Shown here: in pieces, positions 10,399-36,429 of the stretch
Layout of the letters: the number at the start of each line of letters is the position of its first letter
Position numbering within the stretch: the stretch's first letter is position 1
Source of the DNA: an uncultured Lachnospiraceae bacterium
GTDB taxonomy: Bacteria > Bacillota > Clostridia > Lachnospirales > Lachnospiraceae
DNA length: 64,000 bases
Assembly (NCBI GenBank): GCA_946537305.1
Contig: CAMNFR010000001.1
Location: forward strand, 1-64,000
Direction of reading: 5' to 3'
Made by a program: the position numbers and the translations under genes
The notes under the pieces: generated by a model
What the model was told of the DNA's origin: nothing
Databases searched by the model: none
What the model saw: the letters and a program-made list of their open reading frames with translations, nothing else

Positions 10399-13300
10399 TT
10401 ACTTTTTGACCTTTACGGTCACCTTGGCAAAGACGCCGTTCTGTGAGTAAACATAAACATAGCAGGTACCCTTGCCCACGGCTTTGATCACACCCTTGCT
10501 GCTAACGGTGGCCACCTTGGTATCGGAAGATTCATATTTGATCTTCCGGCGGTTCTTCAGCTTGATCTTCTTGAAAGCGAGGGTTGTCTTTGCCTTCAGC
10601 TTGAATTTCTTGCCCTTCTTGGCCAGCGTGACCTTCTTCTTGTTTACCGTCACCTTCTTTACGTTGTTGGCCTTGCTCTTGGCTTTTCCGCCTTTGGTTG
10701 CGACGTGTGCCACCTTGGACGTGGCGATCACCTTGTCCTGGCCGTTCACTGTCTGATAGGCAGTTACATAGAATTTATAGAAGGTTCCTTTCTTCAGTGC
10801 TGCGCCGTTCGCCAGCTTTGTGACCTTCAGGGAATTGCCCGCCTGCTTGACCAGACGCGTATATTTATTGGCCTTTCCGCTGATATTTCCGTAGATCACG
10901 TAGCCGCTGGCGCCGCTCACCTTACTCCAGGTCAGGGTAATGGAGGTCTTATCCTGTTTCTTGGACTGCAGCTGCAGGGGTGCAAACCCGGAGGCAAGCG
11001 GTTCGCCGGTATCGCTTACCTTTGCCGCCGCAGCATCTGCCGCCGCCAGAGAGGTCGGATCGGACACATCGCCTTCCGGATTCTTCGGGGCCGCGGGTGT
11101 TGTGGGCGCTGTGGGTGTTGTGGGCGTTGCAGGTGTTGCAGGTGTCGTGGATCCGCCTCCGCTTATTTTCGGGATTGCCTCTGTACGTGCGGACCCACAG
11201 ACGGTGCAGGTATAGGTCTTTACACCTTCTGCCGTGGCGGTAGCTGCTTTGGTCACTTTGCCTGCATCCCAGGTATGTCCCAGCGCAGGGATCGCGATAT
11301 CCTCTTCCTGGATTTCTGTGGCAGCTGTCTTGTCCGTATACCACTTGCCGCAGAGCTCACACTGCCAGGCTTCCACAGCTCCGGGCTCTTCGCAGGTCGC
11401 CGCTTTTCCCGCCACCTTCCGGAGGTCGTGATTGATTACGATGATCCTGCAATTTCCCTCACTTGAGTCGTATCCCGAAACATGGGTCTGCCAGCTAATA
11501 CTCCAGGAATCACCATTCCGCACGTATTCCGCAGGAATCACCACCTCCTGCATGTCCTGACTGTAACCCTGCGCTCCGTACCAGGAAAGATCCTGGAATT
11601 CCGCATCATCTCCGTTATACCAGATCTGATGCGTGAAGCCCTCGGCTCCCTCCGGCGTCTTCAGGGTAACACGAATCTCATTGCCCGCACATACGAACTT
11701 CGGAATTTCGGAGACATCCATTTCCGGGGCCGTTCCCTCGGAGGTTACCGTTACCGTTACGCGGTTGCTGACCAACCATGTATTCCCATCATCCTTGCTC
11801 ACACGTGCATACAAGGTATAGTTTCCAGCCATGTTAAAGAACAGAGGGAAGAAGTCCGGATTGTCCGAATCAGCCGGGTACATCCATTCCCCTGCCTCCG
11901 GATCAATATCCATGGTATTTGTATTTTCACCGTCAAAGAATTCCAGCAGGGTACAGCCTTCCGGATACTGCACGGTAACCTCTATCGGTTCCCCCGCCGC
12001 ATAGGAAGACTTGTTGGTACTCATGATCACCTCATCGTCCGCTGCTTCCGCCGGAATTACTTGGATCTGAATATGCTTGTCGTTCTGTTCGTAGTTTACG
12101 GCATAGGCCCACAGACTTACATGGATGATTCTGCCTGCTGCAGGGAGTTTTTCTGCAGGAACGACCAACTCCAGGTCCTCCTCCGCGTCATCCCTGCGGT
12201 CGGAGAGATCAACATAGCCGCCTTCATCATCATAGCCTACATCATAGCCCAGGCGGTAGCCGATCGCAGCCGCGTTTTCCGGGAACGGAACACGAATGAT
12301 GAGATCCTCGCCTTCTTCAACGTAAGAAGGAATCTGTGAGCCGTCCAGAGAGACCTTTCCGTTTTCAGCCGTTACCGTGATCCACACGGCTTCGGAAAGC
12401 ACTTCTTCCTCGCCGAACCAGGCCTTGGCAAAGAAACGGTATCTGCCGCTTTCGTTCCAGGAACGGCTCTCAGAACATACATCTTCATCCCACTCGCCCC
12501 AGCACTTATCTTCCGAATCATTGAACAATGCAATGCGGTCCGCACCGGGTGCGGAGATGGTAAACATGACATCCTCTCCGGTCTTTGTTTCGGTCTTGCT
12601 GACCTTTAGCTCCACCGCTTCTTCCTGTGCACCTTCGGTCACCGTCAGCCGGATGCGGCTGTCAGATTCACGGTTTTCATATCCTACCGCGCCTGCTCGT
12701 CCGTTTATTACATAGGTACCAGGCTCCAGATTGGCCGTAGCAAAGGTCACATTTGTTCCGCTGCAGCGGTTCTCTACATCCTGCCAGCCATCTTCCTCGC
12801 CTTCTTTTTCGACATCCACCCAATAGTGATCTGCATGTTCGCTCTCCGTGAAGGAGACTGTCACAAAGTCACCCTGAGCCACGGTAATATCCGACGTATC
12901 AGAGAAATCGAACACACCGACGCTGCCTTCCGAAACGGCGGTAACAGAAATCGCGCCGGACGTTTTCCAGGTGTTGCCGCCATCCGTACTGACTCTGGCA
13001 AACAGGCTGTAGTTTCCGGATTCTCCAAAGTTGATATATCTCTCCCAGCTGCCGTCCTCATCCGGCTCCTCTTCCTCCCGGTAGCCGTATCCGTCAAACA
13101 GCTGCACCAGGTTCATGTCCTCCGCTTCTACACGTACTCTCACATCCTGATTGACCGGAAGCGCGCTCAGATCTGCGGGATATGTTGTAAGGGATACGGA
13201 AGCATCCGCAGCCCCCATCACAGGAATACGACGCTCCCCAAAGCCTCTGTCGTAGCCGCGGCCCCAGGCTGCCGCCCTCACGCAGAGGACCATTCCTTCT

Positions 13301-17846: not shown

Positions 17847-18281
17847 TTATAACGAACCTAGCGGAGTGACCTCATATTTTTCCATGATGATCTGCGTTTC
17901 CGTGACGGTCTTTTTGTTCTTCAGGCAGTACAGCAACACCGCGTCCCGCTTCAGGCGGGGATACAACTGGCTTCGCCCGGCTGCTCGCAGCAGCTTTTGT
18001 GCAGTTTCTACGTCCAGCTGCATACCAAACGCCAACTGCAGCACTTTCTCCCTGGAGGGACGTCTGGTGCCGTTAAAGATCTGATGTCCATAGGTGCGGT
18101 CCAGGCCGGCCTGCAGGATTACTCTTTCGGGAATCAGCCCCTTCTCATCGCACAGCTGTGCCAGGTACTCCGTGAAGGATACCTCTGACATATGCTTTTC
18201 ATTATTTTTCAGGAATGCATTCAGATGGCGGGTCCCAAGTATACGTTTCATCAGTGCTCCCGTGGTGATCTTATCATCCAT
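17847..18281 (-). CDS. XRE-like helix-turn-helix regulator paired with the LRR kinase
   Basis: Protein of 144 residues with a central HTH of the lambda-repressor type: SFTEYLAQLCDEKGLIPERVILQAGLDRTYGHQIFNGTRRPSREKVLQLAFGMQLDVETAQKLLRAAG. The C-terminal helices (YPRLKRDAVLLYCLKNKKTVTETQIIMEKYE) could mediate dimerisation. AGGAGG precedes the ATG. The stop is only four bases before the kinase start, so the two are co-transcribed from the promoter at 18346-18374 and probably act in one signalling route. That the regulator is a kinase substrate is inference. Confidence 0.82.
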   Translation of the reverse strand: MDDKITTGALMKRILGTRHLNAFLKNNEKHMSEVSFTEYLAQLCDEKGLIPERVILQAGLDRTYGHQIFNGTRRPSREKVLQLAFGMQLDVETAQKLLRAAGRSQLYPRLKRDAVLLYCLKNKKTVTETQIIMEKYEVTPLGSL

Positions 18282-22221: not shown

Positions 22222-23517
22222 TTAGAACGCAGTATCCAGCAGCGTGATGCCGTCGATCTGCAGATCAAAGTAAGGCGCGGAACGATACTCGGACTCATGG
22301 AAGTAACCGTCGGAGATAACCTCGGTATCACCCTCATAGTTGGCATCGGTATCCACATCCGCCATGTAGCTTTCCAGCGTCTGGCCATCTACGGTGAAGT
22401 TGGCGGTATCGAATACATGAACGGTACCGGCTTCCAGCGCAGCCTTAACTTCATCGATCTTCTCCTGAGTGCCTTCTGCAGCAACGTTGCCGTTAACATC
22501 GGTCAGCACCACGGAACCGGTCGCCAGGTTGCCGGTCCAATCGGCATCGATGTTCTCGCCGTTCATGAAAGCAGTGATGGCTTCCTTATAGTAAGGAGCC
22601 CAGTCGATACGGGAAGATACGATAAAGGTGTTCGGGCAGGCATCGATGGTGCTGCCGTTGTAGGAAACATCCGGTACGCCGGCGTTCTCGCAGGCCGTAG
22701 GAGCGCCCATGGAGTCCGCGTGCTGGCTGATCAGAACGCAGCCGTCCTGGATCAGCTTGGTGGCGCCTTCCTTCTCCGCTGTCTCATCATACCAGGAACC
22801 GGTAAAGGTTACTTCCATGGTAACAGTCGGGCACTGGGACTTCACGCCCAGATAGAAAGAGGTGTAACCGGAGATAACCTCGGCATAGGTGAAAGCACCA
22901 ACATAGCCGATCTTAGCCTGATCTTCGGTGATGTCGCCGTTGGCGATCATCTCATTCAGCTTCAGTCCTGCAGCTACGCCGGCCAGATAACGACCCTCGT
23001 AGATGGAGGCGAAAGCGTTGTGATAGTTGTCCAGTCCCTCGGTGTGAGCCTTGGTACCGGTGGAGTGGCAGAACTGAACCTCCGGGAACTCCTTGGCGGC
23101 CTGGATCATATAATCCTCATGACCAAAGGAATCGGCGAAGATGGCCTTGCAGCCGGCGTCTACCATTTCACAGGCAACATCGTAGCACTCCTGACCCTCG
23201 GGAACGTTGGTCTGCAGCTGATACTCAATGCCCAGCTCTTCACATGCCTGCTTCGCGGCATTGATGAAGTTCAGGTCATAGGTGGAGTTTTCATCGTGCA
23301 GGCAGATGAAACCAACCTTGAAATCAGCAGCAGCAGCGGGCTCGGCAGCCTCTGTTTCAGCGGCCTCTGCAGCTTCCGTTTCAGCAGCCTCCGCAGCTTC
23401 CGTGGCATTCTCTTCCGCGGCAGCGGTGGTGGCAGGTGCGCTGCTGCCGGAACCGCATGCGGCGATCATCGACGCACACAGCAGAGCAGCCAGTAAAACA
23501 CTGATTTTCTTTCTCAT
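22222..23517 (-). CDS. nupN: BmpA/Med-family nucleoside-binding lipoprotein
   Basis: Substrate-binding lipoprotein of the ABC system, about 431 residues. The start at 23517 (MRKKISVLL) has GGGAGGAAG upstream. The lipobox is MIAACG, followed by an Ala/Glu/Thr-rich linker with repeats of EAAETEAA (about residues 25-65). The BMP domain follows: DFKVGFICLHDENSTYDLNFINAAKQACEELGIEYQLQ, then DSFGHEDYMIQAAKEFPEVQFCHSTG and KIGYVGAFTYAEVISGYTSFYLGVK. Related proteins bind purine nucleosides; ligand here is inferred. Expression is from 23621-23649 through a structured leader. Confidence 0.92.
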   Translation of the reverse strand: MRKKISVLLAALLCASMIAACGSGSSAPATTAAAEENATEAAEAAETEAAEAAETEAAEPAAAADFKVGFICLHDENSTYDLNFINAAKQACEELGIEYQLQTNVPEGQECYDVACEMVDAGCKAIFADSFGHEDYMIQAAKEFPEVQFCHSTGTKAHTEGLDNYHNAFASIYEGRYLAGVAAGLKLNEMIANGDITEDQAKIGYVGAFTYAEVISGYTSFYLGVKSQCPTVTMEVTFTGSWYDETAEKEGATKLIQDGCVLISQHADSMGAPTACENAGVPDVSYNGSTIDACPNTFIVSSRIDWAPYYKEAITAFMNGENIDADWTGNLATGSVVLTDVNGNVAAEGTQEKIDEVKAALEAGTVHVFDTANFTVDGQTLESYMADVDTDANYEGDTEVISDGYFHESEYRSAPYFDLQIDGITLLDTAF

Positions 23518-23556
23518 GTTCTTCCTCCCTGAAAGATATAAAAACAAACAGTACTT

Positions 23557-23596
23557 GGACCGGCAGAATCCCCACCGACGGTCCGATCACCGCCGG
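23557..23596 (-). promoter_or_regulatory. Mutually exclusive hairpins in the nupN leader
   Basis: On the minus strand CCGGCGGT pairs with ACCGTCGG, and the overlapping GGACCG pairs with the later CGGTCC; both cannot form together. This is the hallmark of an attenuator or riboswitch-like leader, but no T-run follows and I cannot match it to a known riboswitch. Confidence 0.4.
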
Positions 23597-23620
23597 AAAG
23601 AATAGCCCAGTCCAATGCAG

Positions 23621-23649
23621 ATATTAAACAAAAGAGAAGTTTTTGTCAA
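23621..23649 (-). promoter_or_regulatory. Promoter of the nucleoside transporter operon
   Basis: TTGACA (23649-23644), 17-base spacer, TAATAT (23626-23621). Transcription would start about 100 bases before the lipoprotein gene and include the structured leader. Confidence 0.75.
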
Positions 23650-23756: not shown

Positions 23757-24002
23757 AAATGATTTAGGGCTATCCGATTTGCCTTCTGCAATCCGGATAG
23801 CCCTATCTCTGGGGAAATTTAAGATTCACTATATAACCTCCTTTTTTATTTTGCTTCCGACCTTTCCTCGCTCAGACATTCTTCCCTTTTTCTTTCTCGT
23901 CCTCCCATCGGAGGCTGCGGATGGTAACTTATAAGCCCGTGGGTGTTGCCTAATCCCAAAAAGTCGGAATCCTTTCTTGTCTTTTTTTCCTTTCTTTTTG
24001 AT
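23757..24002 (-). ncRNA. Candidate structured RNA of unknown family
   Basis: This gene-free stretch has its own promoter (24009-24037). The predicted transcript contains TTCCGAC near its 5' end that pairs with GTCGGAA about 100 nt later, enclosing the small hairpin CCTCC-GATG-GGAGG, and finishes with a perfect 12-bp hairpin (TAGGGCTATCCG/CGGATAGCCCTA, 23765-23805). A strong AAGGAGG with a GTG nine codons before TAG lies between them (around 23820-23850). The 63-aa ORF listed here begins upstream of the predicted transcript start and looks non-coding. It might be an independent small RNA or a long regulatory leader; no known family is recognised. Confidence 0.4.
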
Positions 24003-24008
24003 GGTTTT

Positions 24009-24037
24009 ACTTTAGCACATCTAGGACGATACGTCAA
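24009..24037 (-). promoter_or_regulatory. Promoter of the candidate RNA
   Basis: TTGACG (24037-24032), 17 bases, TAAAGT (24014-24009). It does not precede any convincing reading frame. Confidence 0.6.
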
Positions 24038-24162
24038 GTTGTTTTTTCATAATTTAAGAATATCTTTCGTTTTATGTGAAATTGTATAAATTATATCACT
24101 CAATTCATACAATTCCGGTGATGTCCAGGAGCTGTCCTCGAATCTCACTCTCCCTGAATCAT

Positions 24163-24199
24163 AAACGAGGATCCGGGGAGAACCCCCCGAATCCTCGTT
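24163..24199 (-). terminator. Likely terminator downstream of polC
   Basis: AACGAGGATTCGGGG and CCCCGGATCCTCGTT form a long, nearly perfect hairpin about 45 bases after the polC stop, followed by TTTATGATT. The T-run is short, but the stem is very stable. Confidence 0.55.
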
Positions 24200-24243
24200 A
24201 TCTTGATCAGAGAAGACTCGCCCGCGAACCTTGAACTGACTGA

Positions 24244-27200
24244 TCAAAGCATCTCCAGATCAAAAAGAGAGATCTGATTGGTCCGGGGCAGATCCCCGAA
24301 CAGGCCTAGCGCGACCATGGTATCCGCCACGGTCTTACTGGTCTTGGTCCTCTGGCAGAAATCTTCCACAGAGAGGAACCTGCCGCGGGCCGCCTCGGCT
24401 ACCACTGCTTCCGCTGCTTTCTCTCCCATGCCGTCAATGCTCATAAAGCTGGGCATGATCTTTCCGTCCACAATGATGAAATCCTTTGCCTGGCTTCGAT
24501 AGAGATCAATGGGCATAAATTCATACCCGCGGGCATACATCTCCTCCACGATACGCATATCCCGCAGCGTCGCCTTTTCTTTTTCACTGAGGTTGTCTGC
24601 GTTCCGCCGGTAATTTTCCAGATGGCCCTTCAGGACGCCTACGCCCTGGCACATCATTTCGTAGTTAAAACCGGTGGCGCGGATACCAAAGAAGGCCGCG
24701 TAGTATTCCAGCGGATAAAAGACCTTGCAGTACGCAATGCGCCAGGCCATCATAACATAGGCCGCGGCATGTGCCTTGGGGAACATATACTGGATCTTCT
24801 CGCACGATCCGATGTACCAGTCCGGTACATCGTGCGCCTTCATTTCCTTCTTCCACTCGTCCCAGGTCTCTTTCGGCAGCTTCCCTTTGGCTACCTGCCC
24901 TTTTCGCACCTTCTCCATAATATTGAAGGAAAGGCTCTTGTCCAGCCCTTTGTTGATCAGGTAGACCATGATATCATCACGGGTGCAGACCGCCGTCTGA
25001 ATGGTCGCCTTCCCGGAAAGGATCAGATCCTGTGCATTCCCCAGCCACACATCCGTGCCGTGCGCCAGGCCCGCGATACGGACCAGATCCGAAAAGCAGG
25101 TAGGCTTCGCGTCGATCAGCATCTGCATGGCGAAGTCAGTACCGAATTCCGGCACGCCCAAGGCGCCCAGCTTGGTACCGCCGATATCCTCCGGCGTGAT
25201 GCCCAGGGCCGATGTATTCTGGAAGAGAGACATGACTTCCGGAGAATCCAGCGGGAACTCTCTGGCATTCAGCCCCGTCAGGTCCTCCAGCCGGCGGATC
25301 ATGGTAGGATCATCGTGTCCCAGTATATCCAGTTTCAGAAGGTTGTGGTCAATGGAGTGATAGTCAAAATGGGTGGTGATCGTAGCCGTGGTCATATCAT
25401 TGGCAGGATGCTGCACCGGCGTGAAGGAATTGATATTCTCTCCATGGGGCATAACGATGATGCCGCCCGGGTGCTGCCCGGTGGAACGGCGCACGCCCTC
25501 GCAACCCGCCGCGATACGCTCGATCTCGCAGCGCCGCCGCACCTGATGTTTTTCTTCAAAATATTTCCACACGTAGCCGTAAGCTGTCTTTTCCGCCAGG
25601 GAAGAGATGGTGCCGGCCCGGAAGGTATGGCCTTTTCCGAACAGGACCTCTGTGTACGCATGGGCACGGCTCTGGTATTCGCCGGAAAAGTTCAGATCGA
25701 TATCCGGCTCCTTATCTCCCTTGAATCCCAGGAAGGTCTCAAACGGTATATCGAAGCCGTCCTTTTTCATTTTTGTCCCGCATTTAGGACACACCTTATC
25801 CGGCATGTCGCACCCGGCGCCGCCCGCAAAAGCCCTGACCTCCGGGGAGGTAAAATCGCTGTACTTGCAGTGCGGGCACACGTAATGAGGGCTGAGAGGA
25901 TTTACCTCTGTAATACCGGACATGGTCGCCACAAACGAAGAGCCAACGGATCCTCGCGACCCCACCAGATAGCCGTCATCATTGGATTTCCACACCAGTC
26001 GCTGCGCGATGATATACATCACGGCAAACCCGTTGGAAATGATGGAATGCAGCTCGCGCTCCAGGCGCTCCTCCACGATTTCCGGCAGCGGATCGCCGTA
26101 GATCTCATGTGCTTTCTGATAGCACATGTCCCGCAGTTCCTGATCGGACCCCGGGATCACGGGCGGACACTTATCCGGCCGCACCGGCTTGATAGGCTCG
26201 CAGCAGTCCGCGATATGGTTGGGCACGGTGATGACGATCTCCTCTGCCTTTTCCTGTCCCAGATAGGAAAATTCCTCCAGCATTTCCTCCGTGGTGTGCA
26301 GATAGAGCGGCGGCTGCATATCAGCATCCTTAAAGCCCATGCCGGCCTGCAGGATGCGCCGGTAGACCTCATCCTCCGGGTTCAGGAAATGCACATCACA
26401 GGTGGCCGCCACCGGCTTGCCGTACTGTTCGCCCAGGGCCACGATGCGGCGGTTGAAGTCCCGCAGATCCTCTTCTGACTTCACGTTTTCATACAGCGGA
26501 TCCTGGCTGCGCATCATAAAGGCGTTGTTGCCGATGGGCTGCACCTCCAGATAATCATAGAAGTTCACCAGACGCTCCAGCTCCTCCTCCGAAGCATGGT
26601 TCACCAGGGCGCGGAACACCTCGCCCGCCTCACAGGCGGATCCGATCAGGATCCCTTCCCGGTACTGCGCCAGCAGGCTCTTGGGAATCCGGGGGCGTTT
26701 ATGATAATAGGTCACGTGGGATTCCGACACCAGCTTATAAAGATTGATGCGCCCGACCTCGTTCTTTGCGATCAGGATCACGTGAAAACGGGGGGCTTTC
26801 TGGATGCGTTCCAGATTCCATTCGCCGTCTGTGGTATCGTCCACCAGGTACCCCTCACAGCCGTAAAGGATCTTAATGTCCGATTTTTCGGCCGCGTGCA
26901 TGGCGTCCACGAAGGACTGGACCACGCCGTGATCGGTGATGGCAATGGCGCGGTGGCCCCACTTGATGGCCTGCTTTACAATGGCCTTCGCCTCGGACAC
27001 GCCATCCATATCGCTCATCTTGGTGTGGCAGTGCAGCTCCACGCGTTTCGCCGCCGCCTTATCCATTCGAACGCCCGTCTTGACCCCCTCGGCCTTCTTA
27101 ATGCCTGTCACCTGCAGAATGGTTACCTCATGGTCAAAGGGATCTACGGCAGCCTGGCCCTTTAGGCGCACACGGCTGCCGGGGCCAACCAGCCCCTGCA

Positions 27201-36211: not shown

Positions 36212-36284
36212 CGCTCCGCGTCCGCCGGATATCACCTGCGGAACGCTCCGCGTCCGCCGGATATCACCTACGGAACGCTCCGCG
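36212..36284. repeat. Tandem 32-bp repeat, two full copies and part of a third
   Basis: The unit CGCTCCGCGTCCGCCGGATA + TCACCTGCGGAA occurs at 36212-36243 and 36244-36275 with one base difference; a third copy diverges after nine bases. The stretch is much more GC-rich than the flanks. With no spacers it is not a CRISPR. Confidence 0.85.
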
Positions 36285-36304
36285 CTTCGCGCTCCCGCGT
36301 TCCT

Positions 36305-36363
36305 CCACAATCTTCGGATTCCGCTCGTTTGCTTTCGCAAACGGCTGCATCCTCAGATTGTGG
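36305..36363. repeat. Nested inverted repeat in the thrC-ilvC gap
   Basis: CCACAATCT and AGATTGTGG (36305-36313, 36355-36363) enclose a second hairpin CGTTTG-CTTTCG-CAAACG-like (36326-36343). The design resembles a REP/MITE fold. Confidence 0.6.
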
Positions 36364-36366
36364 GCG

Positions 36367-36420
36367 CGTCGTAAAAACATGAGAAGATACGCTCGCGTAT
36401 CTTCTCATGTTCTTTCGACG
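36367..36420 (-). terminator. Intrinsic terminator of ilvC
   Basis: A perfect 17-bp stem, AACATGAGAAGATACGC with its complement, is followed on the minus strand by TTTTTACG; an outer CGTCG/CGACG pair extends it. It begins ten bases after the ilvC stop. Confidence 0.85.
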
Positions 36421-36429
36421 CTGGTGATA

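Follow-up and report, generated by a model that had tools for sequence, protein, structure and literature searches.

What is encoded by the gene-free DNA between polC and nupN in this Lachnospiraceae bacterium? In the window, by which we mean the whole 64,000-nucleotide stretch that was analyzed, polC ends at 24244 and the PnrA/Bmp-type lipoprotein gene starts at 23517, both on the minus strand. An earlier note on this DNA had proposed a small RNA or, alternatively, a leader with a regulatory mini-ORF, and as a whole that interpretation is partly supported. Our main reading, to which we give a probability of roughly 0.55, is that the locus holds a stand-alone transcription unit of ~240 nt that belongs, as a derived member, to a Lachnospiraceae family in which a series of translated micro-ORFs would be followed by an intrinsic terminator and the RNA would act via ribosomes.

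All parts of the element lie on the minus strand. The promoter (24009..24037) consists of TTGACG (24037-24032), a 17-nt spacer, and TAAAGT (24014-24009), with a TG ahead of the -10 box; its TTGAC box and position are conserved in three congeners (G004, G009, and G010). From this promoter, the predicted transcript of about 240 nt (23765..24005) would extend through the final hairpin, and its conserved 5' start, CCATCAAAAAG (23994..24004), is common to relatives and sits just 3' of the -10 box. The structured middle (23855..23969) is closed by an outer stem of TTCCGAC (23969-23963) and GTCGGAA (23861-23855), inside which are CTTATAAG (23935-23928) and the hairpin CCTCC-GATG-GGAGG (23914-23901). 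A Shine-Dalgarno (SD) sequence, AAGGAGG (23837..23843), precedes micro-ORF C (23803..23829), whose GTG-AAT-CTT-AAA-TTT-CCC-CAG-AGA-TAG reads as eight sense codons (MNLKFPQR-stop; the family peptide is MKLxxIH-stop). The element closes with a perfect 12-bp terminator-type hairpin, TAGGGCTATCCG/CGGATAGCCCTA (23805-23794 / 23776-23765), which has the stop codon of C within its 5' arm; the U-tract after it is degenerate (CTAAATCATTTG), and a good U-tract is present in most relatives. The promoter, the outer stem, both hairpins, and the strong AAGGAGG before a GTG and eight sense codons had all been pointed out in the earlier note, and each was located on this strand. Separately, a strong hairpin, GAGGATTCGGGGGGTTCTCCCCGGATCCTC (24150-24215, minus strand), stands soon 3' of the polC stop codon and is probably the polC terminator.

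Taken alone, the promoter does not stand out by its score (3 found versus 1.5 expected). The window RNA has a predicted fold of -71.1 kcal/mol compared with -51.8 kcal/mol for dinucleotide shuffles (z = -4.6; 0 of 200 shuffles as good), with much of the excess stability coming from the final hairpin, and the folds of two relatives gave z values of only -1.8 and -2.0. At the position of the middle hairpin, the three congeners have other complementary arms (GGCCT/AGGCC, GGCAT/ATGCC, and GGTATC/GATACC), and RNAalifold on 4 sequences found 11 pairs changed on both sides, terminator included. Covariation thus lends modest support to the predicted structured middle. The window feature is more than chance because of its conservation: the TTGAC box and the CCATCAAAAAG start are common to relatives, and the block of SD, ORF, and hairpin extends far beyond the genus.

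The first search, with a 271-bp stretch against 61 genomes, returned short matches, mostly centered on AAAGGAGGTTATATAGTGAA. Also covered were 299 family genomes, by a pattern search, and about 85,000 species genomes, by a scan that yielded 87 stretches, nearly all from Lachnospiraceae or unnamed Clostridia; there were 91 distinct matches in total, four of them atypical (L035, L043, L084, and L110). What they have in common is module C, GAGGUUAUAYAGUGAAACUU…stop, encoding MKLxxIH-stop and followed by a terminator, in about 90 distinct elements that are almost all from Lachnospiraceae and whose neighbors, on one strand or the other, are unrelated genes. Module C served as the search handle for most of the set, and the SD-to-CTT core was part of the pattern and is therefore invariant by construction; ORF length, the remaining peptide, and the hairpin were not in the pattern. 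A typical element has the SD, a UUAUAYA spacer, GUG, an ORF of 7-8 codons, a hairpin, and usually a U-tract. The ORF is 7-8 codons long in 87 of 89 homologues, the terminator arm begins at -3 to +2 nt, counted from where the C stop codon ends, in all 73 measurable relatives, and codon 6-7 is varied (His, Ser, Gln, and others). The window copy shows the strong SD, the UUAUAYA spacer, the GUG, the 7-8 codon ORF, and the stop-abutting hairpin.

With covariance model R1, the window copy scored 64.4 bits as one of the 82 training sequences, and strong matches (>55 bits) were confined to Lachnospiraceae. Elsewhere in the order, scores reached only 25-39 bits, and the matches inspected were unrelated ordinary terminators. 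By strict patterns, at least about 18 of the 299 sampled genera besides the window's own were positive, in a patchy distribution with 1 to 3 element copies per genome. The earlier note had listed a lack of conservation in relatives among what would refute it, and the element proved to be conserved across Lachnospiraceae. In the comparison with 6S RNA and Rfam that it had suggested, neither the window copy nor any of the scanned relatives matched at the gathering threshold or, credibly, at relaxed E-values; weak FsrA, CC2171, and BTnc005 matches fell far under the gathering scores. Plasmid and phage records held no match for the Eubacterium ramulus copy, and a mobile, phage, or plasmid origin was rejected, the pattern matches in viral contigs falling in unrelated sequence.

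Upstream of C, members of the family carry two further types of micro-ORF, each, like C, with a strong SD. Type A follows the pattern GGAGG-N3-7-CC[AG]-NTG-X(-Y)-stop, of 2–3 codons (also written GGAGG-N-UCCA-AUG-X(-Y)-stop), and is upstream of C in 69 of 85 elements. Type B, SD-AUGAAAGGNAGAGAYCCAUAG, encodes MKGR[D/G/S]P-stop and is found in 23 of 85; its third codon positions vary synonymously, and its stops are UAG (22), UAA (4), and UGA (0). When a motif test required only the SD and CC[AG]NTG, with no stop, all 87 distinct A/B start motifs lying ≤900 nt upstream of C stopped after 2 (59), 3 (22), or 6 (6) codons, whereas such a length was seen in only 1 of the 7 matches elsewhere in those loci (1.26 Mb, both strands counted). 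Within a subset of 72 motifs, the other two frames were broad, except for UGA arising from AUGA; the starts were ATG (60), TTG (11), and GTG (1), and all three stop codons were used. Type A alone as the query gave 13 matches, compared with 1 in a reversed control, and this search brought in five further loci that had been missed via C, with B and C present in all five. L171 and L175 have C in different nucleotides behind a different leader, with the same kind of peptide (MKLQEIH-stop and MKLTIIH-stop), and L093 and L100 have eight tandem type A units of ~54 nt, each SD-AUG-UAC-stop and about 70% alike, which sit about 900 nt upstream of ORF C. Because start, frame, and stop are kept while the type of start codon, the type of stop codon, and synonymous codons vary, translation of the micro-ORFs is indicated. 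As far as sequence comparison can tell, there is good evidence that selection acts on the start, on the reading of a short frame of fixed length, and on the stop, and we consider it very likely that the family is real and that its micro-ORFs are indeed translated.

Some other features of these regions were recorded. Folding of the GUCCA arm into a hairpin that encloses ORF A did not exceed the level of shuffled controls (102 sites, p = 0.57), and such a hairpin is seen in a few short elements only, e.g., L019, L053, L081, and L104. In L120, on contig C42 of the window's own genome, a hairpin CTCC/CTCT...GGAG/AGAG followed by TTTACATAGATG stands between A and B, and it recurs in L012, L027, L028, L122, L129, and L176. 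L132 is a degenerate copy of the family in the genus, in which A is MG-stop, B is reduced to MEE-stop, and a longer ORF, with MKLQCIP-stop as its end, takes the place of C before the terminator.

The promoter and the 5' CCAUCAAAAAG are conserved in the family, and by a strict expression, TTGACA/-10/CA[AT]CAAAAG with the shared CAACAAAAG/CATCAAAAG start occurs in 42 of 85 elements; the window copy has the conserved promoter and a 5' start of the CA[AT]CAAAAG type. The distance from the RNA start to C ranges from 79 to 852 nt. Genes were placed with a simple codon-score ORF caller rather than from annotation, and the next gene could be placed in 75 cases, in which it was co-oriented 48 times and convergent 27 times. 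No downstream product recurred, with no Pfam family appearing more than twice among the 37 co-oriented neighbors scanned, and the consistent co-oriented downstream gene expected of a cis-acting attenuator was not found. These comparisons show the family to consist of predicted stand-alone transcription units with no consistent downstream gene. Both halves of the earlier proposal need adjusting. The small RNA keeps its independent promoter and a probable small transcript, but the label undersold the conserved content, which is micro-ORF translation; the mini-ORF of the leader is conserved, but a leader role is weak in general, with 48 of 75 next genes co-oriented and no recurrent product.

From this architecture, we infer that ribosomes, and not a protein product, are the means by which the RNA acts; its cellular function across the family is uncertain. 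Ribosomes would dwell on these very short ORFs; two-codon ORFs and Pro-stop are known contexts of slow release or drop-off. Strong-SD two-codon ORFs have been reported to hold ribosomes, release peptidyl-tRNA, and protect RNA (PMC8708949). Pro-stop is a slow-termination context according to Hayes 2002 as that work is cited in PMC7246954, although some species and assays show no stalling there, and the effect may be species specific (PMC7246954). Such dwelling could report or tune translation capacity. The geometry is attenuator-like: a ribosome held at the C stop would cover the terminator arm and might influence the 3' end or stability of the RNA. In the window, the stop codon lies inside that arm and only the C/hairpin part is kept, and with C occupied, transcripts would possibly run on toward nupN. 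The simplest reading is that the RNA acts by ribosome occupancy, with occupancy of C tied to its own 3' end. We offer only tentatively a ribosome-state regulatory role for the family, and with the same reserve the idea of a free-standing pure ribosome substrate, in which arrays of 2-, 3-, 6-, and 7-8-codon ORFs would act as a sensor of, or a buffer for, the capacity to initiate and terminate, the last ORF being coupled to the terminator of the RNA itself. Against coupling of ribosome and terminator, the terminator may form ahead of the ribosome reaching C, and what tells against the explanation that we favor is that A and B are missing from the window copy, whose hairpin also has no good U-tract.

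Among the alternatives, the one that survives best, while still unlikely, is a trans-acting base-pairing small RNA in which the strong SDs and micro-ORFs merely load ribosomes that protect against RNases. Its stand-alone nature and variable middle region suit this, and minigenes provide a precedent for protection by ribosomes (PMC8708949). However, the exact ORF lengths, the B residues kept under synonymous variation, and the recoded C modules exceed what ribosome loading needs, and no conserved seed region was identified.

Rather improbable, in our estimation, is that the element is a cis-acting leader or attenuator of nupN, in which a ribosome on the mini-ORF would block the abutting hairpin so that transcription reaches nupN. 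The stop codon inside the hairpin arm is what such a device would have, and in the window and in congener G009 alike, nupN is preceded by an element whose U-tract is weak. However, nupN has a promoter-like sequence of its own outside the element (TTGACA-17-TAATAT, 23621..23649, minus strand). The earlier note had called this promoter separate, and in agreement with that, promoter-like sequence precedes nupN wherever examined, including orthologues L200-L202; besides the window, three relatives show it, and two of them are without the element. Furthermore, the nupN orthologues of G008 and G001 are without the element, the elements of subfamily members G010 and G004 precede other genes and have strong U-tracts, and family-wide, 27 of the 75 next genes are convergent. 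On the grounds of its own promoter-like sequence, the orthologues without the element, and the elements before other genes, nupN is a neighbor and not a general target, with local read-through from the window element a possible exception suggested by the weak U-tract. Two further observations concern this operon: the nupN leader (23500-23620, minus strand) contains a GC-rich inverted sequence, GGACCGTCGGTGGGGATTCTGCCGGTCC, with no Rfam match, and a 144-aa ORF after the nucleoside-transporter operon (17847-18281, minus strand) has a weak HTH_31 helix-turn-helix match below the cutoff.

A subfamily is made up of the window copy and the copies of three congeners (G004, G009, and G010): its members share promoter and start, keep CTTATAAG unchanged, build the middle hairpin from differing complementary arms, and have C, but neither A nor B is present in any of them. 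The window's own genome also holds a full A-B-C copy (contig C42, C module at 12960-13064) encoding MK-stop, MKGRDP-stop, and MKLTIIS-stop. Because A and B are missing from the window copy yet present in this second copy, the former was filed as a derived member and is, judged by sequence, a derived paralogue without A/B and with a structured middle and a weak U-tract. That it is a decaying paralogue without present function seems to us about as improbable as an attenuator of nupN. The missing A and B, the altered C (MNLKFPQR), the degenerate U-tract, and the complete copy elsewhere in the genome would all agree with decay, but promoter, start, CTTATAAG, SD, ORF C, and hairpin are kept across four species, and the pairing of the middle hairpin survives base changes. 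Least probable is that the peptides themselves (MKGRDP and MKLQEIH) are the products, as trans-acting signals or ribosome ligands, since, even though B is conserved at the amino acid level and recoded C keeps its peptide type, 6-8 residues cannot hold an export signal, type A gives di- and tripeptides of varied residues, and B is missing from several elements.

The reading that we prefer, an RNA acting via ribosomes, can be set beside known systems. Type A, unlike the window copy, has the SD and AUG-X-stop form of phage lambda bar, a two-codon minigene for which being translated, and not the product, is what counts. The minigenes of the EHEC LEE1 leader and axe-txe mg2 share with the family a strong SD, an AUG, one or two sense codons, and a stop, and in them the act of translation, not its product, matters (PMC8708949). 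These published minigenes are cis-acting and located in leaders of protein genes, whereas the family has up to eight per free-standing RNA and no main ORF. Leader-peptide attenuators of the trp and tna type, and rhizobial rnTrpL, which is a released trans-acting attenuator, resemble the family in placing a terminator immediately after a short ORF, an arrangement in which ribosome position could affect termination; the family differs in having several ORFs, no consistent downstream operon, and no competing antiterminator that we could identify. Dual-function or peptide-coding small RNAs such as SR1 likewise have their own promoter, terminator, and internal short ORF, but the family ORFs are of 2-8 codons with several per RNA, and there is no sequence relationship. 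Clostridiales-1 and other clostridial Rfam RNAs are also stand-alone and intergenic in Clostridia, but none of the family members scanned, the window copy included, matches an Rfam model. The window itself contains a Clostridiales-1 RNA (RF01699, 125 bits; 36262-36429, minus strand), after which comes a stretch of CGGAGCGTTCCG-AGGTGATATCCGGCGGACG that is partly repeated; an association with it was rejected, as it has no SD or micro-ORF resemblance. Open-access literature on minigenes, short ORFs, and Lachnospiraceae small RNAs yielded no description of the family. Given this and the architecture of several micro-ORFs on a free-standing RNA without a main ORF, the family of stand-alone bacterial micro-ORF RNAs is apparently undescribed in that literature.

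If the micro-ORFs are translated, the family would represent a class of gene that protein and noncoding RNA annotation would be expected to miss, with ORFs too short for gene calling and an RNA too little paired for structure search. It would also provide natural, conserved two-codon ORFs and a Pro-UAG hexapeptide ORF outside the leaders of protein genes, and thus a way to ask why a cell would commit ribosomes to ORFs of this kind. With cultured hosts such as Eubacterium ramulus ATCC 29099, Clostridium fessum, and Faecalicatena contorta, the family is directly testable.
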